DNA of 44,067 nucleotides, from contig JAHDGK010000010.1 of assembly GCA_020627685.1 (NCBI GenBank), forward strand, positions 1 to 44,067. The letters run 5' to 3'. The translations under genes and the position numbers were made by a program. Shown here one piece after another: positions 7,856-23,334 of the stretch. This DNA comes from Granulosicoccus sp. (lineage in GTDB: Bacteria > Pseudomonadota > Gammaproteobacteria > Granulosicoccales > Granulosicoccaceae). The notes under the pieces are model-generated. The model did not search any database, was not told where the DNA came from, and was given only the letters and a program-made list of their open reading frames with translations. How positions within the stretch are numbered: the stretch's first letter is position 1; each line of letters opens with the position of its first letter.

Positions 7856-7863
7856 CTCCTTCA

Positions 7864-8426: not shown

Positions 8427-9599
8427 CTAGACAATAGCCGGTAGTCTTCCCGCAGGAGGAGTATTACGGCTGCGGTGAGAGGTCACTTTCCCATCAATAA
8501 CGGTCATGCCGATACCCGGTAAATTCCCTTGTTGAATACTTTCCAACATGTCTTTTCCTGGCGAATGTTGGGCCTGATCCAGGATTAACAAATCGGCTGA
8601 CTTGCCGACTTCAACAATGCCGGTATCGAGTTCTCGCATTCTGGCAGTATTGCCTGTCGCAAAGCAAAAAGCGATTTCTGCAGGTACGTTCCCAAGGCTT
8701 GATAGCATGGCAATCATTCTGAGAATGCCTAATGGCTGAACGCCGGAACCCGCCGGGGAATCTGTACCTAGAATGACGCGTTCGGACTGATCAATCTCAA
8801 AAGCGGTGCGCATAGCAAGTAGGCCTGCACGCTCGTTTCCGTTGTGTACGATTTCGATACCTCGAGTACAACCTTCGCACAAGCACATTATTTGATCGTC
8901 GGGCAGTGCCGTGTGTCCCCCGTTAATATGGCCGATGATGTCCGCATCGGCCTCTAAAACGATATCTTTGTCTATTAAGCCTGACCCGGGAATTGACGGT
9001 CCTCCGGTATGTATCGTCGATTGAATGCCATATTTACGAGCCCACTTCACCATCTCGGCTGCGGTTTCCCCCGCTTTTACGGTGCCAAGGCCCACTTCGC
9101 CTAAAAGTTTAACGCCTGCATCGGCCAAGTCTTTGAAGTCTTCCTCGACCATGCCTTCTTCCAGAACCGGTGCTCCGGCGTGCATTTTTACACCGGATGG
9201 TCGAAAGTTTTCGTACCAGCGTTGAGATGCGATTGCCATAGCCTTCAACCCGACGATATCTTTTGGTCTGCCCGGAAGGTGTACTTCTCCGGCAGATATC
9301 ATCGTAGTCACGCCACCATGCAGACACGAATCAATCCAATGGATTTGTTGTTGTCTGGGTGTGTAGTCACCGATAACCGGGTGGACGTGAGAATCAATCA
9401 GACCAGGAGATACCCAAGTATCGTTAGCATCGACGGTGGTTGTTGCCTGGTCGGTATCCATGTCTTTCTCATAACCGATTTCTGATATCAACCCGTCCAA
9501 GGCGATAATGCAATTTCCGTCAATAAGAGGTTCTTCCAACTTTCCGGACAGAATACGGCCGATGTTTTTAATAACCAGTTTTTCTTGAAAGTCGGACAT
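8427..9599 (-). CDS. ena: Enamidase-like amidohydrolase (cyclic enamide hydrolase)
   Basis: This 390-residue amidohydrolase-superfamily enzyme most resembles enamidase of the nicotinate pathway. That enzyme opens the ring of 6-oxo-1,4,5,6-tetrahydronicotinate to 2-formylglutarate and ammonia. The metal site is complete: HVH at residues 71-73, E168 in LLGEVGLG, H197 in TIHTGG, H224 in IIGHINGGH, and D280 in LGTDSPAG. The length is close to that of the Eubacterium barkeri enzyme. The ATG at 9599 is preferred because GGAG lies 8 bases upstream; a start five codons earlier is possible. It follows the MarR gene in the same direction, so repressor and hydrolase are likely co-transcribed. Homology alone does not prove the exact ring substrate; imidazolonepropionase-like activities are the main alternative. 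Confidence 0.85.
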   Translation of the reverse strand: MSDFQEKLVIKNIGRILSGKLEEPLIDGNCIIALDGLISEIGYEKDMDTDQATTTVDANDTWVSPGLIDSHVHPVIGDYTPRQQQIHWIDSCLHGGVTTMISAGEVHLPGRPKDIVGLKAMAIASQRWYENFRPSGVKMHAGAPVLEEGMVEEDFKDLADAGVKLLGEVGLGTVKAGETAAEMVKWARKYGIQSTIHTGGPSIPGSGLIDKDIVLEADADIIGHINGGHTALPDDQIMCLCEGCTRGIEIVHNGNERAGLLAMRTAFEIDQSERVILGTDSPAGSGVQPLGILRMIAMLSSLGNVPAEIAFCFATGNTARMRELDTGIVEVGKSADLLILDQAQHSPGKDMLESIQQGNLPGIGMTVIDGKVTSHRSRNTPPAGRLPAIV

Positions 9600-9620
9600 G
9601 CTAGTGGTCTCCATTCATCC

Positions 9621-9638
9621 AGAGAAAAGTGTTTCTCT
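9621..9638. other. Short inverted repeat between marR and ena
   Basis: AGAGAAA and TTTCTCT form a perfect 7-bp stem with a 4-base loop. It starts at the MarR stop codon and ends 21 bases before the ena start. It could be a weak attenuator or an RNA stability element. No T-run follows, so a true terminator is unlikely. Confidence 0.35.
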
Positions 9639-10108
9639 TACGTTTTCTGTATTTTTTTAAGTAGCTTTACAAGCTTTGATGCTTCTGCGGAAGTTAATTT
9701 TTCTACTGTTTTTCGAGTAATTTCCTGAGCAATGGGAATAGCTTGTTCCGTGGTTCTCACGCCCTTTGCCGTTAAGGAAATGCTCAGCCGTCTTTTATCC
9801 TTACTGTCTGTTTTGGATTTAATTAAGCCCTTTTTGTATAGCCTGTCTATGACACCGTTAGTGGTGGCTGCGTCAATTCCCACTTGTCGGCCTAATTCAT
9901 TTTGGGAAAGTTGACCGACTTCGTGCAGGCGTGCCAGTACCGAAAACTGCGTCGGGGTCAATGCTGGCATGTTTTCAGAAAATATTTCAAGGTGCCGCTG
10001 ATTGGCTAATCGGAGTAGGTAGCCGATTTGTTCATCAAGCTGATATTCCTCAGAAATATCGCTCTGAGCGGTATGCATACTGAGCTCTGCTGCGTTGGGC
10101 TGAATCAA
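9638..10108 (-). CDS. MarR-family transcriptional regulator of the N-heterocycle locus
   Basis: This 156-residue winged-helix repressor has the MarR order: an N-terminal dimer helix, LTPTQFSVLARL (near 50-61), the recognition region QNELGRQVGIDAATTNGVIDRL (split across about 75-96), the wing KTDSKDKRRLSIS, and a C-terminal dimer helix. MarR proteins usually bind an aromatic acid or similar ligand and release DNA. NicR of nicotinate degradation is a MarR protein, which fits this context. It is divergent from the catabolic operon that begins at 10243. The 134 bases between the genes hold two palindromes that could be its operators. The likely inducer is the pathway substrate or a hydroxylated intermediate. 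Confidence 0.88.
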   Translation of the reverse strand: MIQPNAAELSMHTAQSDISEEYQLDEQIGYLLRLANQRHLEIFSENMPALTPTQFSVLARLHEVGQLSQNELGRQVGIDAATTNGVIDRLYKKGLIKSKTDSKDKRRLSISLTAKGVRTTEQAIPIAQEITRKTVEKLTSAEASKLVKLLKKIQKT

Positions 10109-10139
10109 TAGACTTGACCTTCTGATTGAATTCGGTATA

Positions 10140-10159
10140 ACTGTTTGCGTACGAACAGT
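10140..10159. promoter_or_regulatory. Candidate MarR operator 1
   Basis: ACTGTT at 10140-10145 and AACAGT at 10154-10159 are perfect inverted half-sites with an 8-base spacer that itself contains CGTACG. The size and place, midway between marR and the operon, suit a MarR dimer site. The assignment is by position and symmetry only. Confidence 0.5.
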
Positions 10160-10191
10160 GTTTTAACAATACGCCTAAGTTGGGATATTGG

Positions 10192-10203
10192 CAAAGTACT
10201 TTG
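10192..10203. promoter_or_regulatory. Candidate operator 2: 12-bp perfect palindrome
   Basis: CAAAGTACTTTG is self-complementary and lies 39 bases before the first start codon of the operon at 10243. It could be a second repressor site overlapping the promoter or leader. No clear -35/-10 pair was identified next to it. Confidence 0.4.
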
Positions 10204-10242
10204 ATACCGACCATAACCTGTAATGCGGAGAGACGCCAAGCC

Positions 10243-10824
10243 ATGCCGGAAGTCGTGATACGAAAACTGGGCGTGAACGTTGAGGAAATCTTCCACGAGG
10301 GCGGTGATGCCCCGTCGCAGCCGCTGCGTCGCGCGGTTGCTATTGCAGTCATACACAATCCCTTTGCAGGTCGATATGAACCTGACATAGAAGGGTTTAT
10401 GGCCGATTTAAATCCATTGGGTTTACGCTTAGCTAACCGTTTAGTGGAAGTCCTAGGTGGCGTAGATCAAGTGCAGGGCTACGGAAAAGGTGCAATTGTC
10501 GGAAGTGCCGGCGAATTAGAGCACGGGGCCTTGTGGCATGTTCCCGGCGGTTACGCTATGCGTGAAGCCCTGGGTGGCGCAAAGGCCATTGTTCCATCGA
10601 CTAAAAAGGTGGGAGCGCCAGGCACACGTTTAGATATCCCCATAACGCATATTGATGCTTCTTATGTTCGCAGTCATTTCGATGCCATCGAGGTTGGCCT
10701 TAATGATGCGCCAAAAGCTGATGAATTATTGTTGGCATTAGTCATGTCAACAGGTTCGCGCATCCATGCAAGAGTTGGCGGTTTGCAGGCTGCTGATATT
10801 GAAGGACAGGATGGGCTGCGCTAG
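10243..10824 (+). CDS. DUF1185 ('amino acid synthesis') family protein, first copy
   Basis: This 193-residue protein belongs to the DUF1185/AA_synth family, which has no firmly assigned reaction. Recognisable family features are the N-terminal IRKL, the segment HNPFAGRY, GYGKGAIVGSAGELEHGA, and the C-terminal DASYVRSHFDAIEVGLNDAPKADE (read in two parts), followed by ARVGGL. It begins the catabolic operon. The start at 10243 follows a purine-rich GGAGAGACG leader. It is a clear paralogue of the protein at 11715: both share YVRSHFD, NDAP.A.E and RVGGL. The UPF0280 start lies inside its last codons, pointing to translational coupling. A hydrolase, isomerase or scaffold role in ring breakdown is possible, but none can be claimed. 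Confidence 0.85.
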   Translation: MPEVVIRKLGVNVEEIFHEGGDAPSQPLRRAVAIAVIHNPFAGRYEPDIEGFMADLNPLGLRLANRLVEVLGGVDQVQGYGKGAIVGSAGELEHGALWHVPGGYAMREALGGAKAIVPSTKKVGAPGTRLDIPITHIDASYVRSHFDAIEVGLNDAPKADELLLALVMSTGSRIHARVGGLQAADIEGQDGLR

Positions 10825-11728
10825 CAGCAATATTCTAAAGCAGGAGCGTCCAACAGCATGGTTGTTGGGCGATGCAACTCGTCTGCATTTACAGCATGGC
10901 CCTATTGATTTAATCATTGATGCCGCAGGTTCTTCTGCGGAAATTAAGCGTGCTTACAGGCAAGCAGCCGTTGCCTTTGAGAGTGTGCTTGATACGCTAG
11001 CTGCGCAGCTACCGGCTTTGCGTCAAGAAAGTCGAATCTACGAAAACTTCTTATTTAAAGGAGATGTTGCAAGGCGAATGCAGCTCGCCGTTCAACCATA
11101 TAGTGAGTTTCACGTGACACCTATGGCGGCAGTGGCTGGCGCCGTAGCCGATCATATACTGTCCTACTTAATTCACAATCGAACATTAGATCGTGCTCAG
11201 GTCAATAATGGTGGAGATATCGCGCTCCATCTAAGTCCTGCCAGCGAATTGAAAATTGGTATTTGTAAATCACAAAAGAGTACTGATCACTCAGACGCGT
11301 TTCTAATAAAACCCGAAGACGGTATCGGTGGTGTCGCCACCAGTGGTTGGCAGGGACGTAGTTTTTCATTAGGAATCGCAGACGCTGTTACGGTGCTGGC
11401 ATCGACTGCAGCAGATGCCGATGTTGCTGCAACGCTTATTGCCAATGCGGTAAATCTGCCAGTAGCTCAAGAAGTCACTCGTGCACCAGCAGCGAGCATA
11501 CAGCCAGACTCAGACCTCGGTAATCGCTTGGTTACAATCAATGTCGAACCCCTGAGTGAGATTAATAAAAAACAGGCGCTAAATGCGGGTGTACAGTGTG
11601 CGAAAAAACTGATGAATCAGGGAAATATTCACAGTTGTTATCTTCATCTGCAAGGCCAGACGAAAATTGTAGAGTCTTCGTGTTATCAATCCGCGTTTTG
11701 TGTGAGTCAACGATATGCCCACTGTTAA
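10811..11728 (+). CDS. UPF0280-family protein (ApbE-superfamily-like)
   Basis: This 305-residue protein matches the UPF0280 family, which is placed in the ApbE (FAD:protein FMN transferase) superfamily but has no proven role. Landmarks are DLIIDAAG near 34-41, the segment TPMAAVAGAVADHIL near 100-114, NNGGDIALHL near 130-139, and a C-terminal SLGIADAVTVLASTAADAD. The ATG at 10811 overlaps the previous gene by 14 bases and is preceded by AAGGACAGG; an earlier in-frame ATG at 10766 lies deep inside the upstream gene and is less likely. Its end overlaps the next gene by 14 bases. Because the operon also encodes a 6-hydroxynicotinate reductase-like protein, whose studied relative carries covalent flavin, attachment of that flavin is an attractive inferred role. 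Confidence 0.82.
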   Translation: MGCASSNILKQERPTAWLLGDATRLHLQHGPIDLIIDAAGSSAEIKRAYRQAAVAFESVLDTLAAQLPALRQESRIYENFLFKGDVARRMQLAVQPYSEFHVTPMAAVAGAVADHILSYLIHNRTLDRAQVNNGGDIALHLSPASELKIGICKSQKSTDHSDAFLIKPEDGIGGVATSGWQGRSFSLGIADAVTVLASTAADADVAATLIANAVNLPVAQEVTRAPAASIQPDSDLGNRLVTINVEPLSEINKKQALNAGVQCAKKLMNQGNIHSCYLHLQGQTKIVESSCYQSAFCVSQRYAHC

Positions 11729-12302
11729 AATTAGAAAACTAGTCACCTTTGTTGATGAAACATATAGCGAAATGGGGCAGGCTATAAACCCTGCAACTCG
11801 TAGAGCTGCCGCAGTGGCTGTTATAGAAAATCCATACGCAGGCCAATTTTCACAAGATTTAGAAGATCTCATGGTTATCGGTGAAGAGCTGGGCGGTATT
11901 CTGGGAGAGAAATGTGTTGCGGCGTTGGGGATACAAGCTGCTGATGCACAGAGCTACGGTAAAGCTGCGATGGTGGGTGAGAACGGTGAGCTGGAGCATG
12001 CCGCGGCCATTTTGCATCCGCGTTTAGGAAAGCCGTTGCGAGCAGCGGTAGAAAAAGGAGCTGCGTTGGTCGCTTCAAGCAAAAAGATGGGGTCTTTGGG
12101 GCAGGTGCTTGATGTTCCTTTGGGGCACAAGGATGCCGCTTATGTTCGATCGCATTTTGATGGTATGGAGGTTAGAATCAATGATGCGCCTCGCGCTAAT
12201 GAAATAATGGTGGCAGTAGCCGTCACAGACTCAGGACGTCCAATACCTCGTGTCGGCGGTCTAACACATGAAGATGCTGTCGGTGAGGACGGTTTAAGAT
12301 GA
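11715..12302 (+). CDS. DUF1185 ('amino acid synthesis') family protein, second copy
   Basis: This 195-residue paralogue of the protein at 10243 keeps the same blocks: IRKLVTF at the N-terminus, ENPYAGQF near 37-44, SYGKAAMVGENGELEHAA near 80-97, AAYVRSHFDGMEVRINDAPRAN near 140-161 (here split as AYVRSHFDG and INDAPRANE), and PRVGGL near the end. The two copies differ in the middle and may form a heteromer or act on successive intermediates. It overlaps the UPF0280 gene by 14 bases upstream and the Rieske gene by 4 bases (ATGA) downstream, so it is firmly within the operon. The reaction is unknown. Confidence 0.85.
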   Translation: MPTVKIRKLVTFVDETYSEMGQAINPATRRAAAVAVIENPYAGQFSQDLEDLMVIGEELGGILGEKCVAALGIQAADAQSYGKAAMVGENGELEHAAAILHPRLGKPLRAAVEKGAALVASSKKMGSLGQVLDVPLGHKDAAYVRSHFDGMEVRINDAPRANEIMVAVAVTDSGRPIPRVGGLTHEDAVGEDGLR

Positions 12303-13318
12303 GTTATGTTCGCGATGCATGGTATGTCGCGGGTTGGTCGTCAGAGTTCGACGACTCGCTAAAACGCGTCGTCATACTCGAGCAGCCTGTCGTCATGTAT
12401 CGGGCAACGAATGGCAGTATGGCCGCTCTTGAGGATCAATGCCCTCATCGATTACTGCCACTATCAAAGGGCAAGAGAATTGGTGATGATATCCAATGTG
12501 GATATCACGGTATGACGTTCAATTGCGAAGGTCGATGTGTGCGAGTTCCAGGGCAGGACAATATTCCGGCATCCGCATTTGTTAAGAGCTATGCCGTACA
12601 CGAAAAGCACAATATTGTGTTTGTCTGGATGGGTGATTCGCGTGATGCCAACACCGATGACATTTTCGATTTACCTCAGTTCCACAGTGATCAATGGCAC
12701 GCGCATCAAGGAGATGCACTGCACCTGAAAGCAAACTATTTAAATGTCGCGGAAAACCTGGTTGACCCCGCGCATGTGAGCTTTGTTCACCCTACAACGC
12801 TTGGTAACTCTGCCAGTGAAAACGTCCCTGTACACGTTGATACAGAGGGCGAGGTGCTCGTAGCATGGCGTTGGATACGCGACGCGCCACCCGTTGGCTT
12901 TTTCCAGAAGTTTGGCGGATTTGAAGGCAATGTGGACAGATGGCATTACTACTATTTACACCTGCCGTGTACAGCTGTCATAGATTTTGGAAGTGCCGAT
13001 ACTTCAAGGCAATTGCCCGAGGAATTGCGCGACGAGGGTGTGCGAATATTTGCGTTGCATTTCCTCACGCCGGTTAATGAGCACTACACCATTGATCGCT
13101 GGATGCACTTGCGCAATGCAGCAGTTGGCGATGAAGCAGCATCTGAACAAATGGATGCCATGTTTAGAGTCGCATTCAATGAAGACAAGGAGATCCTTGA
13201 AGCCATTGATGAGCAAGAGCAGTTGGCTCAAAATCGCAAACCCATACGACTGGCCATAGATAAAGGTCCAACGGTGTACAGAAAAAGAATCAGTGCGATG
13301 ATTACTCAGGCAGAGTAA
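12299..13318 (+). CDS. Rieske non-haem iron oxygenase, oxygenase component (VanA-like)
   Basis: This 339-residue protein is a Rieske-type ring-hydroxylating or demethylating oxygenase. The [2Fe-2S] ligands are CPH (C48, H50) and CGYH (C67, H70). The catalytic mononuclear iron region reads NLVDPAHVSFVH at 153-164, with the bridging D156 and ligands H159 and H164; a late Asp in NEDKEILE is a fit for the third ligand. The size and the N-terminal YVRDAWYVAGW place it near vanillate O-demethylase and related N- or O-demethylases rather than large dioxygenase alpha subunits. No ferredoxin reductase partner is present in the window, so electrons must come from elsewhere. In this operon it may remove an N-methyl group or add oxygen to the ring before reductive breakdown. 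Confidence 0.9.
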   Translation: MSYVRDAWYVAGWSSEFDDSLKRVVILEQPVVMYRATNGSMAALEDQCPHRLLPLSKGKRIGDDIQCGYHGMTFNCEGRCVRVPGQDNIPASAFVKSYAVHEKHNIVFVWMGDSRDANTDDIFDLPQFHSDQWHAHQGDALHLKANYLNVAENLVDPAHVSFVHPTTLGNSASENVPVHVDTEGEVLVAWRWIRDAPPVGFFQKFGGFEGNVDRWHYYYLHLPCTAVIDFGSADTSRQLPEELRDEGVRIFALHFLTPVNEHYTIDRWMHLRNAAVGDEAASEQMDAMFRVAFNEDKEILEAIDEQEQLAQNRKPIRLAIDKGPTVYRKRISAMITQAE

Positions 13319-13345
13319 TCAGTTTGATGTTTTCGACGTAGTAAG

Positions 13346-13358
13346 CCAACGACGTTGG
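13346..13358. other. Perfect palindrome CCAACG-A-CGTTGG
   Basis: Two 6-base arms flank a single A in the 86-base gap between the Rieske gene and the binding-protein gene. With the next repeat at 13375 it marks the only sizeable gap inside the operon. It could be an operator for an internal promoter or a processing hairpin. Confidence 0.35.
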
Positions 13359-13374
13359 TGACCACTATTGATAC

Positions 13375-13392
13375 AGAATCAATTGAGATTCT
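13375..13392. other. Inverted repeat AGAATC-N6-GATTCT before the binding-protein gene
   Basis: The repeat ends directly before the ribosome site GAGGAG of the ABC binding-protein gene. A hairpin here could protect or set the level of the highly expressed binding-protein mRNA, as is common in ABC importer operons. It could also be a protein site. Confidence 0.35.
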
Positions 13393-13404
13393 AGAGGAGA
13401 GTTG

Positions 13405-14628
13405 ATGATGAAAAAACTAGGTTCATTTATGTCGGTTGCAACCGCTACTGCTGTCACGCTTGCGAGTTTGCTCAGCGCGTCCGGCACAGCTTTGGCAGAG
13501 GACAGCATTAAAATTGGTGAGATAAATCACTACAAGAGAATGGCTGCATTCGCAGGTCCATATAAAAACGGTATTGAGCTGGGCCTTGCTGAGATTAATT
13601 CTGCAGGTGGTGTACTGGGCAAACAGCTGGAGTTTATCTACCGCGACGATCAGGGTAAGCCTGGTGAGGCTGTAAAAATTGCAGAAGAGCTGGTAAGCCG
13701 TGATGGCGTTGCCATGATTACAGGCACCATACTCAGTAATGTCGGTTTGGCTATCTCGTCTTTTGCCGCAGAGAAGAAGGTTGTGTACTTGGCATCAGAG
13801 CCATTAGCAGATGGCTTAGTTTGGGAGAGCGGCAACGATTACACCTTTCGTTTGCGTGCATCCACTTATATGCAGGCATCAATGTTAGCCGAAGCGGCTG
13901 CTAAAACTGATGCAGTAAAGTACGCCACCATCGCTCCTAACTACGCCTATGGAAAAGATGCGGTGGCAGCCTTTAAAAAGGCACTAACGGCACTGCGTCC
14001 CGATGTTGAATTTGTCACTGAACAATGGCCTGGTGTTTTCAAAATTGATGCAGGCGCGGAAGTTCAAGCGCTAGAGCGAGCGAAACCCGATGCCATTTAT
14101 AACGTCACGTTTGGCAGTGACCTTGCCAAGTTCGTGCGTGAAGGCACAACACGTGGCTTATTTGAAGGTCGAAATGTTTATGGTCTATTGACAGGGGAGC
14201 CTGAGTACCTGGAACCTCTTGCCGACGAAGCGCCAGAAGGTTGGACGGTCACAGGTTACCCTTGGTACGACTTTGTCGATGGTCCAAACAAAGTGTTTGT
14301 TGATGCCTACACAGAAATGTTTGATGAGTCACCCAAGATAGGTTCCTTAGTTGGCTATATGACCGCGCAGTCAATAGCTGCTGCGTTAACACGTGCAGGT
14401 TCAACCGATATGGAAAGTATCAGAACTGCCTTTATCGGCCTTGAAGTAGATACCCCGGTTGGCAACATTGTTTATCGTGAGCAAGATCATCAATCCACAA
14501 TGGGTGCGTTTGTCGGTACCACCACCGTCAGTGACGGTAAAGGCAAGATGATTGACTGGAGCTATAAAGATGGTGCGAGCTACTTACCGTCTGATGAAGA
14601 AGTTGCGAAGTTACGCAATCCAGAATAA
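13405..14628 (+). CDS. Periplasmic substrate-binding protein of a LIV/HAAT-type ABC importer
   Basis: This 407-residue periplasmic protein of the leucine-binding (Peripla_BP_6) type captures the ligand for the importer encoded just downstream. It has a Sec signal peptide: basic start, hydrophobic region with TAVTLASLLSAS, and cleavage near ALAED at about residue 32. The mature protein begins SIKIGEINHY, with GIELGLAEINSAGGVLGKQL typical of the first lobe. The ATG at 13405 is placed 5 bases after GAGGAG; a second ATG follows directly. Members of this class bind branched-chain amino acids but also many aromatic acids, amides and urea. Its place between a Rieske oxygenase and a molybdenum hydroxylase points to the pathway's heterocyclic acid as ligand. 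Confidence 0.9.
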   Translation: MMKKLGSFMSVATATAVTLASLLSASGTALAEDSIKIGEINHYKRMAAFAGPYKNGIELGLAEINSAGGVLGKQLEFIYRDDQGKPGEAVKIAEELVSRDGVAMITGTILSNVGLAISSFAAEKKVVYLASEPLADGLVWESGNDYTFRLRASTYMQASMLAEAAAKTDAVKYATIAPNYAYGKDAVAAFKKALTALRPDVEFVTEQWPGVFKIDAGAEVQALERAKPDAIYNVTFGSDLAKFVREGTTRGLFEGRNVYGLLTGEPEYLEPLADEAPEGWTVTGYPWYDFVDGPNKVFVDAYTEMFDESPKIGSLVGYMTAQSIAAALTRAGSTDMESIRTAFIGLEVDTPVGNIVYREQDHQSTMGAFVGTTTVSDGKGKMIDWSYKDGASYLPSDEEVAKLRNPE

Positions 14629-14666
14629 GGATTCCTTAGTCACTTAATCCAGGGGACTACAGCGCT

Positions 14667-16538
14667 ATGGGATTGTTTGTTGCCCAACTGCTAACAGGGC
14701 TTGCCAATGCGGCAACCCTGTTTCTCGTCGCATCCGGGCTGTCGCTGATTTTCGGCGTCACCCGGATCGTTAATTTTTCTCATGGCTCTTTCTATATGTT
14801 GGGTGCCTTTGTCGGCTACTCACTTATGCAGGTCTTGCCCGGGGCAATAGGTTTCTGGTCGTCAGTGATATTGTCCGGGCTGATCGTAGGTGTCATAGGC
14901 GTTATCGTTGAGGTGCTTGTTCTCAGGCCCGTCTATAAAGCGCCGGAGTTGTTTCAGTTAGTCGCAACATTCGGCGTTATTCTGGTTATTCAAGACCTGG
15001 CGCTTATGATTTGGGGGGCTGAAGATGTTCTGGGGCCCAGAGCGCCGGGGCTTAAAGGCATTGTGCGTTTTATGGGGGAGCCTATCCCCAAATACGATCT
15101 GGCATTAATTGCCATCACGCCGTTTGTGTTGTTTGGTCTTTGGTACTTGTTAACGAAAACACGTGTTGGCGTGCTAGTGCGCGCTGCAACGCAAGATCGG
15201 GAAATGGTTGCAGCACTTGGCGTTAATCAGTCCTGGTTGTTCACGGGTGTTTTCTTTTTAGGTGCTGCACTGGCTGGGTTGGGAGGCGCTATTCAGCTGC
15301 CCAAAGGTGGTGCAGATCTACTCATGGATTTTAATATTCTGGCAGCCATATTCGTTGTGGTTGTCATTGGCGGAATGGGCTCCTTGCCGGGTGCGTACAT
15401 AGCCGCTGTACTCATTTCTGTTCTCAATGTATTCGGTGTTGCGTATATCCCGCAAAGCACCTTGGTACTGATGTTTGTGGTTATGGCTGTTGTATTAACC
15501 ATTCGTCCTTACGGTTTGCTAGGGCGTGAGGAGGTTGCTGGCGAACATGGACAAGTGGGCGAACCTGAAAAGCCGATAAAACCTGCCAGTGGGCGCGCTC
15601 GAATAGTAGTCGGCTTGTTGTTGCTCGGGTTGGTTTGTCTACCTCTGCTCGATTCTCATTTCGTTTTGATACTGGCAACAGACATCATTATTTTTTGTTT
15701 GTTCGCTGCCAGTTTGCATTTTCTACTCGGTTTAGGCGGGCTTGTCTCCTTCGGACACGCTGCCTACTTTGGTGGCGGTGCTTACGTTGCGGCCCTGTTA
15801 GTGACCCATGCAAATGCGCCCATGGAGCTTGCATTCTTAATGGCCCCTATTGGTGCAGGTTTCGCCGCAGTCATCATAGGGTGGCTGTGTCTAAGACTGA
15901 CCGGTGTCTACTTTGCCATGCTGACATTGGCACTAGCGCAACTGTTGTGGTCACTGGTTTTTCAATGGGATGAATTCACCGGTGGTGATGATGGCCTTGT
16001 CGATATCTGGCCTTCGGCTTGGTTATCCGAAGCGACCACTTATTTCTTTTTCACTGTCATCATTGGTGTGGGTGGAATATTGCTGTTACGCCACGTAGCT
16101 CACTCGCCATTCGGCTATGCACTCAGAGCCTCGAGAGACTCTAACCGTCAGGCGGAAGCGACCGGTATCGATACCAAAAAAATTCAGTGGATGGCGTTTA
16201 CCTTTGCAGGAGCTATGGCCGGTGTGTCAGGTGCCTTGTTCGTATTTTCAAAAGGAAGTGTGTTTCCCAATGAATTGGAAATAGCTAAGTCTTTCGATGG
16301 AATAATCGTCGTGTTCTTGGGTGGCGTGAAAACTCTGTCAGGCGGAGTAGTCGGTGCGGCTTCATTAGAGTTGGTTAAAGACTACTTGACCCGATTTGAA
16401 TATTGGCGTCTCGCCTTAGGTCTACTCATTATTTTTGTCGTGATCGTAGCGCCTCACGGCATTGTGGGTTCAATCAGACGTGGCTATGAACGGCTCTTTT
16501 CGCGTTCAACGACCCGCGTTGACGGAGAATCCTCATGA
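14667..16538 (+). CDS. livHM: Fused ABC permease, LivH and LivM halves in one chain
   Basis: This 623-residue membrane protein combines two permeases that are usually separate. Residues about 1-290 are LivH-like, with the typical GLSLIFGVTRIVNFSHGSFY near 23-42 and GAIQLPKGGADLLMD. A polar linker rich in Glu, Lys and Pro (about 288-310) joins it to a LivM-like half with GLGGLVSFGHAAYFGGGAYV and ATGIDTKKIQWMAFTFAGAMAG. About 15 or more hydrophobic segments are visible. It forms the channel of the importer, with the ATPases next to it. Its stop overlaps the ATPase start by 4 bases (ATGA). Fusion of the two permeases fixes a 1:1 ratio and is seen in some related importers. Confidence 0.92.
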   Translation: MGLFVAQLLTGLANAATLFLVASGLSLIFGVTRIVNFSHGSFYMLGAFVGYSLMQVLPGAIGFWSSVILSGLIVGVIGVIVEVLVLRPVYKAPELFQLVATFGVILVIQDLALMIWGAEDVLGPRAPGLKGIVRFMGEPIPKYDLALIAITPFVLFGLWYLLTKTRVGVLVRAATQDREMVAALGVNQSWLFTGVFFLGAALAGLGGAIQLPKGGADLLMDFNILAAIFVVVVIGGMGSLPGAYIAAVLISVLNVFGVAYIPQSTLVLMFVVMAVVLTIRPYGLLGREEVAGEHGQVGEPEKPIKPASGRARIVVGLLLLGLVCLPLLDSHFVLILATDIIIFCLFAASLHFLLGLGGLVSFGHAAYFGGGAYVAALLVTHANAPMELAFLMAPIGAGFAAVIIGWLCLRLTGVYFAMLTLALAQLLWSLVFQWDEFTGGDDGLVDIWPSAWLSEATTYFFFTVIIGVGGILLLRHVAHSPFGYALRASRDSNRQAEATGIDTKKIQWMAFTFAGAMAGVSGALFVFSKGSVFPNELEIAKSFDGIIVVFLGGVKTLSGGVVGAASLELVKDYLTRFEYWRLALGLLIIFVVIVAPHGIVGSIRRGYERLFSRSTTRVDGESS

Positions 16539-17323
16539 ATACTCAGCAAGCAGACAGTGTTCTGAAGGTCACGGGCTTAAGTAAGTCTTTCGGCGGGTTG
16601 CAAGCGGTCAGTAATTTAAATTTTGACGTGCGCCGAGGAGAGTTGTTGGCGCTAATCGGGCCTAACGGTGCTGGCAAATCTACGTGTTTCAATATGCTGA
16701 TGGGACAGCTAAAAGCGACCCAGGGCGATGTCTTCTTACGGGGTGAAAAAATCACCGGCATGAAGCCACGCAAGATATGGCGTAAAGGGGTTGGTCGAAC
16801 ATTTCAGATAACGGGTACCTATCAGTCAATGACGGTTATCGAGAATGTGCAAATGGCACTAATTTCACACCACAAGAAACTATTTTCGATACGTCCTTAT
16901 GCAACGCGTTTGTATCGAACTGAAGCAATGCAATTGCTGGAACTTGTTGGAATGTCGGCTCAAGCCGAACGTGCCTGCGCTATCTTGGCCTATGGTGACC
17001 TTAAACGCCTTGAGCTAGCCATTGCATTAAGTCATAGCCCGTCATTGTTGTTGATGGATGAGCCAACCGCAGGTATGGCTCCGAAAGAGAGAATAAACTT
17101 GATGCAGCTCACTGCAGATATCGTGGAAGAGCGAGATATCAGTGTGCTCTTTACGGAGCACGATATGGACGTTGTTTTCGCTCATGCCCATCGCATCATG
17201 GTTTTAAATCGCGGTGAACTCATCGCTAATGGCACCGTAGAAGAAATCCGTAGCGACCCGATGGTGCAGGAAGTCTATTTAGGCGGTGGCAGCGTGTTTG
17301 CCAATGAGTCTTCACATGCTTGA
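16535..17323 (+). CDS. livG: LivG-type ABC transporter ATPase
   Basis: This 262-residue ATPase powers the importer. Walker A is GPNGAGKST near residues 42-50. The ABC signature is slightly unusual, AYGDLKRLELAIAL in place of LSGGQ-like wording, as is normal for LivG proteins. Walker B is SLLLMDEPTAGM, followed by the switch His in FTEHDMDVVF. The Liv-type C-terminal block NGTVEEIRSDPMVQEVYLGG is present. The start has a GGAGAA ribosome site and overlaps the permease stop. It overlaps the second ATPase by 8 bases. Confidence 0.93.
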   Translation: MNTQQADSVLKVTGLSKSFGGLQAVSNLNFDVRRGELLALIGPNGAGKSTCFNMLMGQLKATQGDVFLRGEKITGMKPRKIWRKGVGRTFQITGTYQSMTVIENVQMALISHHKKLFSIRPYATRLYRTEAMQLLELVGMSAQAERACAILAYGDLKRLELAIALSHSPSLLLMDEPTAGMAPKERINLMQLTADIVEERDISVLFTEHDMDVVFAHAHRIMVLNRGELIANGTVEEIRSDPMVQEVYLGGGSVFANESSHA

Positions 17324-18017
17324 AATAACAGACATCAATAGTTTCTACGGGAAGGCGCATATACTTCGCGACCTTAGCTTTTCTATAAAGCCTGGCGAAG
17401 TAGTCTCTTTGCTCGGGCGAAATGGTGCGGGAAAAACCACGACCGTTAAGTCGATCATGCAGCTGGTTAAGCCGCAAACCGGCCAGATCTTTTTTGATGG
17501 TGTTGAGTTAACCCAATTGCCCACTCACAAAGTGGCGAAGCTAGGAGTGGGTTACGTACCGGAAGAGCGCAGAATATTTACAGACTTAACAATCAGCGAA
17601 AATTTGGAAGTAGGGCGGCAGCCTCCTCGCGAAGGTGTGTTCGAATGGACAACCGATATCCTGTTCGATCTTTTTCCTAATTTATTAGAAAGAAAGAACA
17701 ATCGGGGTAAAGCGTTGTCTGGAGGCGAGCAGCAGATGCTCTCTATTGCGCGAACACTCATGGGAAACCCGCGTTTGTTATTACTGGATGAGCCTTCAGA
17801 GGGGATTGCTCCTGTCATCGTAGAGCAGATGGCGCAAACGATTCTACGGCTTAAAGACGAAGGCTTACCGGTCTTGCTGTCCGAGCAAAATTTACACTTT
17901 GCCCGACTGGTCTCTGATAGAGCGATTGTGATAGAGGGCGGTCTTAAGAAATTTGACGGTGCGTTTAGCGAGTTAGAAGCACAACCGGAGATACGCGATG
18001 CTTATCTGTCTGTCTGA
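17316..18017 (+). CDS. livF: LivF-type ABC transporter ATPase
   Basis: This 233-residue second ATPase completes the importer. Walker A is GRNGAGKTT near residues 35-43, the signature is LSGGEQQML, and Walker B is LLLLDEPSEGI. The next block, PVLLSEQNLHFARLVSDRA, is typical of LivF. The start at 17316 (MLEITDINSFYG) matches the family N-terminus and overlaps livG by 8 bases; in-frame starts at 17304 and a GTG at 17286 are less likely. It is followed after 36 bases by the FAD subunit of the hydroxylase, in the same direction. Confidence 0.92.
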   Translation: MLEITDINSFYGKAHILRDLSFSIKPGEVVSLLGRNGAGKTTTVKSIMQLVKPQTGQIFFDGVELTQLPTHKVAKLGVGYVPEERRIFTDLTISENLEVGRQPPREGVFEWTTDILFDLFPNLLERKNNRGKALSGGEQQMLSIARTLMGNPRLLLLDEPSEGIAPVIVEQMAQTILRLKDEGLPVLLSEQNLHFARLVSDRAIVIEGGLKKFDGAFSELEAQPEIRDAYLSV

Positions 18018-18053
18018 TATTCCAAGCATAAAGGTGCACGTATAAATTCTGTT

Positions 18054-18956
18054 ATGGCTACTGAGCATACGGACAATCGGCAGATGTCCTTAACATCTGC
18101 ATTGCAACAGATAGCTGTTAACCCGATACAGGTCTTAGCTGGCGGCACCGATTATTTCCCTGCGCTTGGAGAGTCCGCCGTCCCCGATTACTTACTTGAC
18201 TTAACGAAAGTGTCCGAGCTTCGCGGCATTCGCATAACTGATGACGGCATAACCATCGGGGCTACAACAACGTGGACAGACATCATAAATGCTGAGTTGC
18301 CCGATTTTTTTAAAGGACTTAAAGAGGCAGCTAGGGAGGTCGGCTCAGTGCAGATTCAAAATGCCGGCACAATCGCAGGCAATCTATGTAATGCATCACC
18401 CGCCGCGGACGGTGTTCCACCTCTATTAGCGTTAAACGCTAGCATCGAGATTGCCTCAGTAGATGGTTTTCGCCGCGTTCCTTTAAGTGAATTCATCCTC
18501 GGACCAAGATCAACAACCTTAGCTGCAAATGAACTAGTCATCGCCATCCACATACCCGGCTTGTCATCTGATGCGCGAAGCGGATTTTACAAACTGGGCT
18601 CACGCCGTTATCTGGTGATATCCATTGTTATGGCGAGTGTCACGCTCTTAGCGAACGATGCCGGAGAGTTGTGCGACGTTAGGATCGCTGTGGGGGCTTG
18701 CTCAGCCGTTGCAAAGCGTATGACAGAATTAGAAGAAGTACTGACCGGTCAGTCTATTCAAAGTGATATTGAGTCTTTAGTTAAACCAGAATTTTTTAAA
18801 GAATTAGCACCGATTAGTGATGTAAGAGCTAGTGCACCCTATCGGACAAACGCCGCCTACGAAGTTGTTATTCGCCTCCTGAGATCAACTTTGGCTGCAC
18901 TACCTCAACATGGTATCTCCACAGGTACACGCACCTGGGTAGGTAGTGCATCGTGA
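18054..18956 (+). CDS. FAD-binding subunit of a xanthine dehydrogenase-family molybdenum hydroxylase
   Basis: This 300-residue subunit carries FAD and passes electrons from the Fe-S centres to the acceptor. The FAD sites are AGGTDYFPAL near residues 27-36 and the family block QIQNAGTIAGNLCNASPAADG, near 101-121 (listed here in two pieces, QIQNAGTIAGN and LCNASPAADG). The C-terminal CO dehydrogenase flavoprotein domain follows, with FYKLGSRRYLVISIV. Length fits CoxM/NdhF-type subunits. Its stop overlaps the GTG start of the next gene (GTGA), so the two proteins are probably made in equal amounts. In the nicotinate pathway this complex hydroxylates C6 of the ring with water as the oxygen source. 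Confidence 0.92.
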   Translation: MATEHTDNRQMSLTSALQQIAVNPIQVLAGGTDYFPALGESAVPDYLLDLTKVSELRGIRITDDGITIGATTTWTDIINAELPDFFKGLKEAAREVGSVQIQNAGTIAGNLCNASPAADGVPPLLALNASIEIASVDGFRRVPLSEFILGPRSTTLAANELVIAIHIPGLSSDARSGFYKLGSRRYLVISIVMASVTLLANDAGELCDVRIAVGACSAVAKRMTELEEVLTGQSIQSDIESLVKPEFFKELAPISDVRASAPYRTNAAYEVVIRLLRSTLAALPQHGISTGTRTWVGSAS

Positions 18957-21781
18957 GCTTATCAAATGACGAGCCAACGGTTGCGGCAGCACCATCGGTG
19001 AATACTTCAAAGGCGAGTCCATCATCAAGTTTTACATTAAATGGTAAGCCCATAACATTCCAAGGTGGAGCTACTCAACGTCTCTCCGTTGCCTTACGTG
19101 AAAAGCTCAATAGTCGGGATGTTAAAGTAGGGTGCAATGCTGGCGATTGCGGAGCGTGCACAGTCCTTATCGAAGGTGAACCGGTATGCGCTTGTTTGAC
19201 GGCTGTGGGGCAGGTACAAGGTAAAGTAGTTGATACCTTGGCAGGGTTAAAAGAAAACGACGATGTGATGAAGTTGTTGCTACGTTCGTTTTTGGTACAT
19301 GGTGCCGCTCAGTGTGGAATATGTACGCCGGGTATGTTGGTCAGTGCCTTACATTTACTGCGTCAGACTCCGTATCCAACCGAGCAACAAGTCATGGACA
19401 GTCTTGGCGGTGTTCTGTGTCGGTGTACCGGTTACCGAAAAATCATAGAGGCTGTTGTTAACGCTACGAATCTGGCTGAAGACACAAAATCCCAGGAAGA
19501 ACGCCATTCGGTTAATAGTGTTGGCGAATCGTTTCAGCGAATTGATGGGATAGCCAAGGTTGATGGCAGTGATGAATTCGGTGATGACGTTTGTCCACCG
19601 GATGCATTGGTGCTACGTCTTGTCCGTTCACCTTTTCACAAAGCCGTTTTCCGTTTCGGAGACCTTAACGCATTCCTTGAAAGGCATCCGGGTATTGAGC
19701 GTGTACTAAGCGCCGCTGACATCCCTGGAGCAAATTTGTTCGGTGTCATACCGCCGTTTATCGACCAGCCCGTCTTTGCGGAAAACACCGCACGCTTTAA
19801 AGGGGAGGCAGTTGCCGCGGTCGTGGGTGAAGCGTCGGCAATGGCTTCATTGAACCTGTCGGATTTTCCCATTGAGTGGGTCGAGGAGAGCGCACTGCTT
19901 GACCCCTTACTGGCATTGCAATCTGAAGACAACCGGGTACACGACAATGCGGATAAAAATATCCTCTGTCATGGTCTTGTGCAAAAAGGGGATGTTGCGC
20001 AAGGACTTAAAGACGCCCACCTGAAAGTTCGCGGAAGTTTTTCCACGGGCTTTATCGAGCATGCCTATATAGAGCCTGAGGCAGGCTATGCCAATCGAGT
20101 GGGAGAAACCTTGGAAGTCTTTGGTTGTACCCAGGCACCTTTTATGGATCGGGATAGTCTGGCTAGCATCATGAACTTAGAGCCTGACAACGTTCGCATC
20201 GTTCCAACCTCCACTGGAGGTGGCTTTGGGTCAAAGCTCGACATCTCCTTTCAACCGTTTGTGGCACTGGCTGCATGGTTATTGAAAAAGCCCGTCCGCG
20301 TGACGTATTCACGAACCGAGTCCATGCAATCGACCACCAAGCGCCACCCGTCCAAAATGGATGTTGAAATCGCGGTGGATGGTGAGGGACGTTTAACTGC
20401 GTATTCGTTCGAAGGTGTTTTTAACACCGGTGCCTACGCCTCTTGGGGGCCGACTGTGGCTAATCGCGTGCCCGTACATGCATCAGGTCCTTACTACATG
20501 CCGAACTATCGTGCTTACACGACAGGTGTGTATACGCATAGCGCGCCGGCTGGAGCATTTCGCGGGTTTGGCGTACCACAGGCGGCGATCGCACAGGAAA
20601 GTTTGTTTGATGAGCTTGCATACTCATTGAATATGGATCGCCTGGAATTTAGAAGGCTTAATGCGCTTGATAATCACCAGCCAACAGTGACCGGACAGAC
20701 GTTTGAATCGGCGGTAGGAATTCGGCAGTGTCTTGATAGTTTGGTTGAGCCTTGGCGAGAAGCATTAAACGATGCTGAAGAATTCAATCGAGAGGCACAA
20801 GCATCAGGTTCTGCTTTACGCCGAGGTGTCGGTGTTGCCAGTGGTTGGTACGGCTGTGGTAATACATCGCTGGCAAATCCGTCCACAATCAAAGCAGGTA
20901 TCACCCCGGAAGGACGTGTCATTCTTCATCAAGGTGCTGTGGATATCGGGCAGGGTTCTAATACTGTTATTGCGCAGATTTTCTCAGACGCATTGGGTGT
21001 ACCTTTAAACCAAGTTGATATCGAAAGTGCGGATACCTCTATAACGCCCGATGCGGGTAAAACATCTGCATCCAGACAGACATTTGTATCAGGCAATGCG
21101 GCGAAGCTTAGCGGGATGGCTCTTCGTAAACTCCTGGCACAACGGGCCGGGTGTGATTCCATACACTCACTGACCATAGACGCTCATCTGTGTACTGTTC
21201 GGCCCGTTGATGGTGATGCCATCACGATTAATTTAAGTGATATGCAAATTAATAATCAAGGCTATGTCTTGATGGCTGAAGAATCATACGATCCACCAAC
21301 CAAACCCTTAGATGAAAACGGTCAAGGTATTCCATACGCGCTATACGGATATGCTGCTCAGCTCGTCACTCTCGATGTTGATACCGCTCTCGGTCTAGTG
21401 AAGCTTGGGCGTTTTACAGCCGCGCACGATGTCGGTAAGGCCATTAATCCACAACTTGTCGAGGGGCAGATACATGGCGGCATAGCGCAAGGTATTGGTC
21501 TGGCACTGATGGAAGAGTTCATACCGGGACGAACCGATAATCTTCACGATTATCTGATTCCGACCATTGGTGATGTACCTCCAATAGACACTGTCATTGT
21601 AGAAGTTGCCGATCCACATGGGCCTTTCGGAGCCAAAGGCCTTGGAGAACATGTGCTAATACCGACAGCTCCGGCCATTCTTAACGCAATCAGACATGCA
21701 AGTGGTGCTGTGGTTCGCGACTTGCCAGCTACGCCCGATAAAGTCTTGGCTGCTATTCAACAAAGTAAGGAGATCAACTAG
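18953..21781 (+). CDS. Molybdenum hydroxylase with fused [2Fe-2S] and Mo-cofactor subunits (nicotinate dehydrogenase-like)
   Basis: This 942-residue protein joins two subunits that are often separate. Residues about 25-175 carry two [2Fe-2S] clusters: C61, C66, C69 and C81 for the plant-type ferredoxin cluster, and C121, C124, C156 and C158 for the second. Residues about 185-942 are the Mo-cofactor domain, with GGGFGSKLD (Q-loop region), PAGAFRGFGVPQA, DIGQGSNTVIAQIF, and the catalytic Glu at E899 in GAKGLGEH. Each hydroxylation would use water and release two electrons to the FAD subunit upstream. The start is a GTG overlapping the previous stop. The exact substrate is not readable; the neighbouring 6-hydroxynicotinate reductase-like and enamidase-like genes argue for a pyridine carboxylate rather than a purine. 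Confidence 0.92.
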   Translation: MSLSNDEPTVAAAPSVNTSKASPSSSFTLNGKPITFQGGATQRLSVALREKLNSRDVKVGCNAGDCGACTVLIEGEPVCACLTAVGQVQGKVVDTLAGLKENDDVMKLLLRSFLVHGAAQCGICTPGMLVSALHLLRQTPYPTEQQVMDSLGGVLCRCTGYRKIIEAVVNATNLAEDTKSQEERHSVNSVGESFQRIDGIAKVDGSDEFGDDVCPPDALVLRLVRSPFHKAVFRFGDLNAFLERHPGIERVLSAADIPGANLFGVIPPFIDQPVFAENTARFKGEAVAAVVGEASAMASLNLSDFPIEWVEESALLDPLLALQSEDNRVHDNADKNILCHGLVQKGDVAQGLKDAHLKVRGSFSTGFIEHAYIEPEAGYANRVGETLEVFGCTQAPFMDRDSLASIMNLEPDNVRIVPTSTGGGFGSKLDISFQPFVALAAWLLKKPVRVTYSRTESMQSTTKRHPSKMDVEIAVDGEGRLTAYSFEGVFNTGAYASWGPTVANRVPVHASGPYYMPNYRAYTTGVYTHSAPAGAFRGFGVPQAAIAQESLFDELAYSLNMDRLEFRRLNALDNHQPTVTGQTFESAVGIRQCLDSLVEPWREALNDAEEFNREAQASGSALRRGVGVASGWYGCGNTSLANPSTIKAGITPEGRVILHQGAVDIGQGSNTVIAQIFSDALGVPLNQVDIESADTSITPDAGKTSASRQTFVSGNAAKLSGMALRKLLAQRAGCDSIHSLTIDAHLCTVRPVDGDAITINLSDMQINNQGYVLMAEESYDPPTKPLDENGQGIPYALYGYAAQLVTLDVDTALGLVKLGRFTAAHDVGKAINPQLVEGQIHGGIAQGIGLALMEEFIPGRTDNLHDYLIPTIGDVPPIDTVIVEVADPHGPFGAKGLGEHVLIPTAPAILNAIRHASGAVVRDLPATPDKVLAAIQQSKEIN

Positions 21782-21783
21782 TC

Positions 21784-23334
21784 ATGGTTCGATTCGTGGT
21801 TGATCAAGAAGATAATGGAAAGATTCGATGCGATGCCTGTCCCGTGCTGTGCTACATCAAAGATGGTCGTACGGGCGCTTGTGATCGATACGCCAATGAT
21901 GGCGGTGAGTTAGTCAGAGTTGATCCTTTTACCGTGCTTCAGCGAATGGATACAGCTGATGCGAAGGCGGTTCCCTTTCTGCTTGATTCACTTAACGACG
22001 ACGCTACAACTGATGACTCACAACAACACGATGAGAATACGTCACAGGGCAACTCATCTAATACCTGGGACGGCGACATACTCGGCAACAATCGAACCTT
22101 TGTCACGGCTATAGGGGCTGGCACAACTTATCCGGATTACAAGCCTGCCCCCTTTATCGTCAGTCAGAAATACGACGATGTCGATATGGTGACCATCGTG
22201 ACCGAAGGGATATTTAGTTATTGTGGTGCCAAAGTCAAAATTGATACCGATAGACACTTGGGTCCTGAGCAAGCTGCGGTTCGAGTAGACGGAGAGGCGA
22301 TCGGTCATGTTATGACCGGGGAGTACGGTTCGCAGATGCTCTCGTTGGGCGGGGTTAATCACTTGACTGGCGGATCGAAAAAGGAAGGCCGCATTACTTG
22401 CAATTCTTTACTGAAGCTCTGCAATTGCGAACCGGTTGAAATGACCATTGATTCCGGTGCAGAGCTGATCGTTCAGGCGGGGCAAGCACCTATAGTAAAC
22501 GGTGTGCGTGAGCACTTAATGAGAGTGGGTTGCGGCTCTGCCACCATCGGTATGTTCGCCACGCAATGGGCACCTCATGTTGACGAGGTTGTTGTCGTCG
22601 ATGACCACATCACCGGCGTGCTCTCGGAACATCAAGCTGGAAAACTGCTGGGCATGCAGCCCACGGGTATCCGTATAAAAGGGCGCCGTTCAACCCCGGG
22701 AAGATATTTTCAAGTCGCCGAGCCGGGTTCCGGCTGGGGCGGTACCGACATACAGGACCCCCTTAGCATTCTTGACGATTTTAAACCCGCACAGGCGAAG
22801 CCGGGTTTGAGAATGCTCATGGTCTCAACCACCGGTGAGCAATGGGCCTACTTTGAGCTGGATGAGAATCTGCAACCGCAGCAGGCCGATTTGCCTGAAG
22901 CGTTGAAGGTGTCGGTGGATCGCATTGCCGAGAATTGCGAACCCTCATTGTGCTCCGTCCTGTTTATGGGGGGAGCCGGCGGATCGCTGCGGGCAGGGGT
23001 GACTGAGAACCCGGTGAGTCTCACCCGCTCTGTACGTGAGTCATTAACCTATGTCTCCTGCGGAGGTGCACAGGCGTATGTCTGGCCTGGCGGCGGAATC
23101 ACGGTCATGGCAGATGTCACGAAAATGCCCAAAAATGCCTTTGGCTATGTACCAACCCCCGCGCTGGTTGCACCAATCGAATTCACACTGCGACGATCAG
23201 ACTACGAACAACTGGGTGGCCATATGCAACATGTACGGACACTGGATGATATTGCGCTTGAGGTTGAGCGCTCTGAAACCGCACCGGATGCCCTTTCCTG
23301 GCCCACTCAGGGACGACATTTCGCCTGGGGATGA
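21784..23334 (+). CDS. hnr: 6-hydroxynicotinate reductase-like iron-sulfur flavoprotein
   Basis: This 516-residue protein resembles 6-hydroxynicotinate reductase, which reduces the pyridone ring to its tetrahydro form. Four N-terminal cysteines, C16, C19, C23 and C33 (CDACPVLC then GACDRY), suit a [4Fe-4S] cluster. Further conserved-looking blocks are TEGIFSYCGAKVKID, MRVGCGSATIGMFA and GRRSTPGRYFQVAEPGSGWG. Residues 400-414 (GSLRAGVTENPVSLT) form a small Gly/Ser/Thr motif that could be a flavin attachment site. Residues about 72-105 form a low-complexity Asp/Asn/Ser/Gln insertion. The E. barkeri enzyme carries [4Fe-4S], FAD and covalent flavin. The gene starts 2 bases after the hydroxylase and ends the operon. 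Electron donor is unknown; ferredoxin is the likely one. Confidence 0.87.
   Translation: MVRFVVDQEDNGKIRCDACPVLCYIKDGRTGACDRYANDGGELVRVDPFTVLQRMDTADAKAVPFLLDSLNDDATTDDSQQHDENTSQGNSSNTWDGDILGNNRTFVTAIGAGTTYPDYKPAPFIVSQKYDDVDMVTIVTEGIFSYCGAKVKIDTDRHLGPEQAAVRVDGEAIGHVMTGEYGSQMLSLGGVNHLTGGSKKEGRITCNSLLKLCNCEPVEMTIDSGAELIVQAGQAPIVNGVREHLMRVGCGSATIGMFATQWAPHVDEVVVVDDHITGVLSEHQAGKLLGMQPTGIRIKGRRSTPGRYFQVAEPGSGWGGTDIQDPLSILDDFKPAQAKPGLRMLMVSTTGEQWAYFELDENLQPQQADLPEALKVSVDRIAENCEPSLCSVLFMGGAGGSLRAGVTENPVSLTRSVRESLTYVSCGGAQAYVWPGGGITVMADVTKMPKNAFGYVPTPALVAPIEFTLRRSDYEQLGGHMQHVRTLDDIALEVERSETAPDALSWPTQGRHFAWG

Follow-up and report, generated by a model that had tools for sequence, protein, structure and literature searches.

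The stretch of DNA analysed here, called the window, comprises 44,067 nt of contig JAHDGK010000010.1 from the 4.9 Mb genome of Granulosicoccus sp. (GCA_020627685.1). At positions 8427–23334 it carries a gene cluster encoding an enamidase-like amidohydrolase (Ena), a MarR regulator, two DUF1185 paralogs, a UPF0280 protein, a Rieske oxygenase, a LIV-type importer, a two-gene molybdenum hydroxylase and a 6-hydroxynicotinate reductase-like protein (Hnr). The open reading frames (ORFs) named in a preliminary description of this DNA were all recovered with the expected family matches, and the locus comparison showed that the gene set is kept across many species. By contig scan and Hnr tree, the nearest named relatives of the Hnr belong to uncultured Granulosicoccus metagenome-assembled genomes. 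Sequence comparison assigns the gene families and points to a conserved core, to exchangeable modules around it and to a link between the Rieske gene and two unrelated nicotinate routes. The core very probably serves nicotinate catabolism, and we favour, with some reserve, an aerobic Hnr-type nicotinate cluster with an upstream add-on fed by a nicotinate derivative, most likely trigonelline (N-methylnicotinate).

Conserved core and exchangeable modules of Hnr loci

Related loci were collected by a scan of GTDB genome contigs, from which the best 80 of 332 Hnr-related loci were taken, with close relatives over-represented; 10 annotated plasmid regions and three loci from a class search brought the set to 93. 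All counts refer to the 65 loci in which Hnr is flanked on either side by 8 kb or more, the other 28 being omitted for a flank below 8 kb, and they depend on identity cut-offs, which excluded three Ena-like genes at 48–49% (L066, L086 and L094) as well as an HyuA-like gene at 43% in L128, a locus with Ena. UPF0280 was present in 62 loci, a lower bound in that the UPF0280 of L047 was lost at the ORF step though seen by another search, and it lay immediately after Hnr in 60. DUF1185 paralog 2 was found in 59 loci and paralog 1 in 47 (either in 62, both in 44), and MarR in 52. All 18 loci with the NicB hydroxylase, the type linked to nicotinate in Bradyrhizobium and Afipia, carried UPF0280 and at least one DUF1185 gene, and 10 of them carried both. 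The window Hnr is 66–69% identical to that of the NicAB-type loci of Bradyrhizobium, Afipia and Xanthobacter, whose clusters have UPF0280 and DUF1185 in common with the window.

The preliminary description had treated the MarR regulator, the dedicated importer, DUF1185 and UPF0280 as extras; the gene content of the 65 loci shows instead that they are usual in aerobic Hnr clusters, and they therefore give no sign of a new substrate. Its assignment of Hnr and the enamidase to a nicotinate-type core agrees with the match of Ena to the Eubacterium barkeri enamidase 2VUN and with the sharing of Hnr with nicotinate-type loci. The Rieske gene, which it had taken as an addition implying a different starting compound, does stand apart, being present in just 13 loci.

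The remaining functions occur in mutually exclusive forms. The window-type hydroxylase was found in 44 loci and NicB in 18 (neither in 3, both in 0), Ena in 38 and HyuA in 11 (neither in 16, both in 0), and a 3I45-type binding protein in 25 and another LIV-type binding protein in 15 (neither in 25, both in 0). This exclusivity indicates that, judged by gene content, the hydroxylase, the importer and the ring-opening enzyme are interchangeable parts filling the same slots of one pathway. On the Hnr tree, a quick tree, there are 7 switches of the NicAB label and 10 of the Rieske label, of which starred branches force 4 and 7, respectively. In six loci (L121, L122, L123, L125, L126 and L127) the missing enamidase is replaced by HyuAB of the hydantoinase/oxoprolinase type, which suggests an alternative, ATP-dependent lactam opening. 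A hydrophobic, probably membrane-bound protein without a Pfam match (L120:8122-9531) has counterparts in 12 of the 15 loci with the second LIV importer type and in none of the other 50.

In Ena, the candidate metal ligands H76, H78, E173, H202, H229 and D285, which we selected from the amidohydrolase pattern, are kept in 42 of 42 aligned sequences. Hnr matched no Pfam or NCBIfam model at 0.001, a profile search of the PDB gave no credible relative (best E 0.65, an antibody chain), and none of 992 PDB chains aligned to its predicted model (predicted local distance difference test, pLDDT, 76) reached a Z of at least 5, so that no fold was assigned. Many of its relatives in plasmid records are annotated as 6-hydroxynicotinate reductase. 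Six cysteines are present in 94 of 94 aligned Hnr rows and two further cysteines in 93. Alhapel and colleagues reportedly found in 2006 that the Hnr of Eubacterium barkeri carries three iron-sulfur clusters and a flavin in covalent linkage. The Cys-rich N-terminus (residues 8–45) gives 36–45% matches in many other ORFs of the class, mostly of 360–400 amino acids, which we presume may be radical SAM proteins.

Hnr and enamidase homologs are common to the window and to the nicotinate fermentation genes (hnr, ena and ndh) of E. barkeri, whose hydroxylase is a four-subunit enzyme, in contrast to the two-gene enzyme of the window. The aerobic nicotinate cluster of Azorhizobium and Bradyrhizobium (SG-6C), whose route runs through tetrahydro-6-oxonicotinate, as seen in Bradyrhizobium/Afipia-type loci, has the same Hnr, enamidase, ABC importer, MarR, UPF0280 and DUF1185. 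The window differs from it in having a flavin adenine dinucleotide (FAD) subunit and a fused iron-sulfur/molybdenum (FeS-Mo) hydroxylase rather than NicAB, an extra Rieske gene with a separate importer clade, and two DUF1185 genes where many Bradyrhizobium loci show one. SG-6C degrades nicotinate via 6-hydroxynicotinate, its cluster type being assigned by homology (PMC3511419).

Association of the Rieske oxygenase with nicotinate catabolism

The Rieske oxygenase has the Rieske and VanA_C domains and candidate iron ligands of VanA/DdmC-type demethylases, and its nearest PDB chains are 7QWT and dicamba O-demethylase (DdmC); the candidate ligands (C48, H50, C67, H70, D156, H159, H164 and D296) are kept in 12 of 12 sequences. 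What sets its orthologs apart from the VanA/DdmC type is their association with nicotinate gene sets. Of the 13 Rieske loci, 11 have a 3I45-type importer immediately downstream of the gene, and the Rieske-linked binding proteins form one clade (Shimodaira–Hasegawa-like approximate likelihood ratio test, SH-aLRT, 100 in a quick tree) separate from the NicAB-linked ones, with fixed differences that include S13 to H, S15 to K, T21 to A, F81 to I and T107 to A (3I45 numbering). The hydroxylase is kept in all 13 Rieske loci, from which the product of the Rieske enzyme should be nicotinate. In L099 the Rieske match falls in two pieces just after UPF0280, where no DUF1185 was found, and may represent a broken gene. 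A Rieske relative at E 1e-40 or better is found in 134 plasmid records, of which 11 reach 60% identity, the next listed standing at 41%; all 11 belong to the 26 records with Hnr. A plasmid copy of the cluster occurs in Sulfitobacter pontiacus (L119).

Genomes were also searched with the Rieske protein, independently of the choice of loci by Hnr. A first family sample of 295 genomes contained the Rieske gene in 20 (62–71% identity) and Hnr in 103; Hnr (E 1e-100 or better) was present in 19 of the 20 Rieske carriers and in 84 of the remaining 275 genomes (Fisher 9e-9), an overlap that was compared by hand; among the 103 Hnr hits, that of G760 contains internal stops. In a second family sample of 257 genomes, the Rieske gene was found in six (57–74% identity), five of them with Hnr. 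With the window genome included, 25 of the 27 carriers at 57% identity or above possess Hnr. Nine more matches from a phylum sample, at 35–40% identity and with Hnr in four of the nine genomes, were taken as non-orthologs and left uncounted.

The carriers without Hnr are G962, where this absence holds at E 1e-100 and a weaker Hnr could be present, and G741; a third Hnr-less genome, G544, has a Rieske relative at 46%. All three possess NicB, and NicAB-, NicC- and NicX-type genes of the kind known from the nic (maleamate) pathway of Pseudomonas putida accompany the Rieske relative in them. The NicX proteins of G962 and G544 are 87–89% identical to that of G741, a level reached in just six of the 295 genomes of the first family sample, G962 included. 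The G741 proteins match the solved 2,5-dihydroxypyridine dioxygenase 7CN3 (NicX, 8.6e-96) and the solved 6-hydroxynicotinate 3-monooxygenase 5EOW (NicC, 4.2e-161), and the remaining nic-like genes were recognised by sequence and broad family only. NicC-type proteins matched PRK08163 below its NCBIfam cut-off and seven other nic-type proteins had no NCBIfam match at 1e-25, while Pfam returned broad families only and none for NicX; PF02073 as a NicX marker gave no match in five genomes, the NicX protein itself being the right query. In the window genome, NicB gave no match at 1e-60 and NicX only a relative at 35%.

In G962, NicX (C93:20437-21462) and the Rieske gene (C93:27890-28891) share a contig at a distance of 6.4 kb, and the interval between them encodes a reductase and members of the isochorismatase and TctC families; in G741 and G544 the two genes are on separate contigs. 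A VanB/GbcB-like reductase ORF overlaps the Rieske ORF in G741, and in G544 the Rieske relative is adjoined by a ferredoxin and a reductase, with a binding protein on its other side. Thus all 28 carriers counted (the 27 above and G544) have Hnr or NicX, and the simplest reading is that the product of the Rieske enzyme is nicotinate. By this distribution, the Rieske orthologs follow nicotinate catabolism rather than Hnr itself, and the enzyme probably acts upstream of nicotinate.

Beside the importer of G544, the segment L147:15782-18204 holds succinate-glutarate CoA-transferase-like and glutaryl-CoA-dehydrogenase-like acyl-CoA dehydrogenase genes (under NCBIfam cut-offs), a gene pair that is also common elsewhere. 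The nicotinate route of Azorhizobium ends in glutaryl-CoA.

Proposed route and starting compound

All substrates and reactions given below are predictions from gene families and gene context. A MarR-controlled LIV-type importer would take up the compound, and the Rieske oxygenase would remove its methyl group as formaldehyde to yield nicotinate. The FAD and FeS-Mo hydroxylase would then form 6-hydroxynicotinate, which Hnr would reduce to 1,4,5,6-tetrahydro-6-oxonicotinate, and the enamidase would open the ring with release of ammonium. UPF0280 would supply or install the flavin of Hnr, and the DUF1185 proteins would act in a later or accessory step. The core appears to be a pathway of known kind and the Rieske and importer module a new variant, whose place upstream of nicotinate is well supported by the genomic distribution and whose substrate is likely to be the one proposed. 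Trigonelline is an osmolyte of plankton and plants. TgnA/TgnB is not known to be a Rieske demethylase. It is a ring-opening oxygenase system with the same starting compound as proposed here (excerpts of PMC8269262).

Trigonelline was reached by elimination and is, in our judgement, the somewhat better bet as the starting compound. If the cluster served nicotinate alone, the importer would carry nicotinate and the Rieske enzyme would have a secondary role, for instance to hydroxylate or detoxify an analogue of the ring; the binding protein is indeed a close homolog of 3I45, which we take to carry nicotinic acid, and nicotinate-type loci that lack the Rieske gene use the same importer family at 54–64% identity to the window protein. 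This explanation is fairly unlikely given that 11 of 13 loci have the Rieske gene immediately before the importer, that the importer clade is separate, with residues of its own, and that the Rieske gene accompanies nicotinate catabolism in three Hnr-less genomes. The Rieske enzyme might also form nicotinate from another precursor, by oxidation of a side chain of the 3-methylpyridine or 3-pyridylmethanol type or by demethylation of another N- or O-methyl nicotinate. An aldehyde dehydrogenase gene adjoins the MarR–Rieske pair in G962, and the genomic link fixes the product alone and not the substrate; LIV-type importers, in turn, usually carry carboxylates or amino acids, and the nearest solved Rieske relatives include the demethylase DdmC. 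Trigonelline, moreover, is a documented metabolite of phytoplankton (excerpts of PMC3721227 and PMC8269262), and we regard such other precursors as quite unlikely.

Homarine had been named alongside trigonelline in the preliminary description, and of the two only trigonelline stands, as the best candidate. Homarine is abundant in marine plankton (excerpts of PMC8269262), at values lowered by a correction, the standard having contained picolinic acid (excerpt of PMC10134881). Its demethylation would yield picolinate, unfit for the NicAB, NicC and NicX partners that also accompany the Rieske gene and that handle nicotinate, not picolinate, and a homarine pathway involving N-methylglutamate dehydrogenase has been reported (cited in an excerpt of PMC13390433). 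Homarine or picolinate catabolism was rejected on these grounds as highly improbable. Ruegeria pomeroyi is reported to grow better on trigonelline than on homarine (excerpts of PMC8269262), the homarine standard having later been found impure (PMC10134881).

Several observations weigh against trigonelline demethylation by an add-on module. The importer is missing in two of the 13 Rieske loci (L077 and L099), and among the residues peculiar to the binding-protein clade are a His and a Lys, whose suitability for a pyridinium is not obvious. Next to the Rieske gene, the window encodes no reductase partner. A search of the window with the VanB/GbcB-like reductase that neighbours the gene in G741 and G962 gave no match at 1e-12, the remaining genome being unsearched, and among 90 other loci searched it gave only weak matches (29–31%), in two that carry the Rieske gene. 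Pairing of the Rieske gene with a nearby ferredoxin-NADP reductase was rejected, no association being found (6/13 versus 19/52, p 0.54). In a Mantel comparison of 12 carriers, Rieske distances correlated with those of Hnr (r 0.88) at least as well as with those of the binding protein (0.79); all three distance matrices correlate, and inheritance of the Rieske and importer genes apart from Hnr is not demonstrable in these carriers. For the hydroxylase, the PDB search ranks aldehyde oxidoreductases first and E. barkeri NDH (3HRD) lower, with 3HRD split into chains and the E-values comparing poorly; judged by the 65 loci, the window-type hydroxylase fills the NicAB slot. Trigonelline occurs at 1 to 300 pM in the open ocean, far below homarine, and the bacterial degradation described so far begins with ring opening by TgnA/TgnB (both according to excerpts of PMC8269262).

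A bolder version of the trigonelline reading, which we consider rather unlikely, would have a Rieske N-demethylase and its own importer feed two unrelated nicotinate pathways. In it, UPF0280 would be a dedicated Hnr flavin transferase that recognises a new target motif, and the DUF1185 proteins would catalyse the enamine or 2-formylglutarate step that follows ring opening. Among the papers listed by literature searches, titles and the opening lines of abstracts describe no Rieske trigonelline demethylase and no UPF0280 function. If true, a demethylating route via nicotinate would link the trigonelline pool to vitamin B3 catabolism in marine bacteria and assign a function to a defined Rieske family. 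The conserved Hnr–UPF0280–DUF1185 set renders two orphan families directly testable.

Accessory proteins, candidate operator and gene coordinates

The predicted model of UPF0280 (pLDDT 88) aligned to DVU1097 (2O34) at a Z of 19.6, and 19 ApbE/Ftp/FmnB flavin-transferase entries matched it at Z 13.9–15.8, with the next rows at Z 8.3 or below. By this model, UPF0280 adopts the fold of ApbE flavin transferases, whose classical target motif is of the [ST]GA[TS] type. UPF0280 differs from these transferases in that 0 of 94 Hnr sequences contain this motif, which speaks against flavinylation of Hnr, other potential ApbE targets not having been searched. Its adjacency to Hnr in 60 of the 65 loci, together with the fold, nevertheless suggests that UPF0280 may install or deliver flavin for Hnr.

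DUF1185 has a chorismate-mutase-like fold, and its function is given as not known (excerpt of PMC2954203). Across 28 sequences, invariant acidic, His, Lys and Arg residues are common to both paralogs and suggest an active site. A profile search returned 2QTP and 3BYQ and otherwise three weak, unrelated matches (E 0.01 to 1.7), leaving a relationship to the ring-opening cyanuric acid hydrolases unsupported.

Between MarR and the first DUF1185 gene lies the sequence ACTGTT-N8-AACAGT. The shorter TGTT-N8-AACA, a pattern chosen after viewing the regions, is present in 10 of the 63 regions upstream of MarR, the window included, with the regions of L049 and L050 being near-copies. Single-base shuffles gave a mean of 0.07 and at most 1 (500 runs), and random stretches of the same loci, searched with a looser N6–N8 pattern, a mean of 0.38 and at most 3 (500 runs). 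The longer CTGTT-N8-AACAG was found in just two of 221 loci, at unrelated places, and the motif with two mismatches showed no excess in the window. We regard the site as a candidate MarR operator, a lead rather than proof.

Table 1 Genes and features of the cluster, with positions in the window.
Feature	Position	Strand	Evidence
Enamidase-like amidohydrolase (Ena); proposed ring opening of tetrahydro-6-oxonicotinate	8427..9614	-	Closest PDB chain 2VUN enamidase, 1.2e-108
MarR regulator	9638..10108	-	PF01047
Candidate MarR operator, TGTT-N8-AACA type	10140..10159	+	Motif search
DUF1185 paralog 1	10243..10824 (ORF opens 10180)	+	PF06684 2.6e-72; structural relatives 2QTP, 3BYQ
UPF0280, ApbE-fold protein	10766..11728 (probable start 10811)	+	PRK04334 2.1e-106, above its cut-off; predicted model
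DUF1185 paralog 2	11715..12302	+	PF06684 2.5e-70
Rieske oxygenase, VanA_C type; proposed nicotinate-forming demethylase	12299..13318	+	PF00355, PF19112
Substrate-binding protein, LIV-type, 3I45 type, Rieske-linked clade	13402..14628	+	3I45 1.2e-139; clade support 100
Fused LivH-LivM-type permease	14667..16538	+	ORF; named by sequence and annotated homologs, same order in Rieske loci
ABC ATPase, LivG type	16535..17323	+	ORF; named by sequence and annotated homologs
ABC ATPase, LivF type	17286..18017	+	ORF; named by sequence and annotated homologs
FAD subunit of molybdenum hydroxylase	18054..18956	+	PF00941, PF03450
Fused [2Fe-2S]/molybdopterin hydroxylase; proposed nicotinate C6 hydroxylase	18953..21781	+	Family match
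6-hydroxynicotinate reductase-like (Hnr)	21784..23334	+	Relatives annotated 6-hydroxynicotinate reductase

The likely start codon of DUF1185 paralog 1 is the ATG at 10243 rather than the TTG at 10180; for UPF0280 the likely start is at 10811. Upstream of the cluster, positions 1262–2140 hold a gene of the 3-hydroxyisobutyrate/6-phosphogluconate dehydrogenase family, presumably the same family as the 2-(hydroxymethyl)glutarate dehydrogenase of E. barkeri; unrelated genes fill the 6 kb that separate it from the cluster. UbiA-like, type I phosphodiesterase-like and TatD-like proteins and a protein with a dehydroquinate-synthase domain are grouped at 2182–7909, an arrangement that we take to resemble the ebo gene set. 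Immediately downstream of the cluster, positions 23505–25298 encode a GH16-family protein, possibly for algal glucans.

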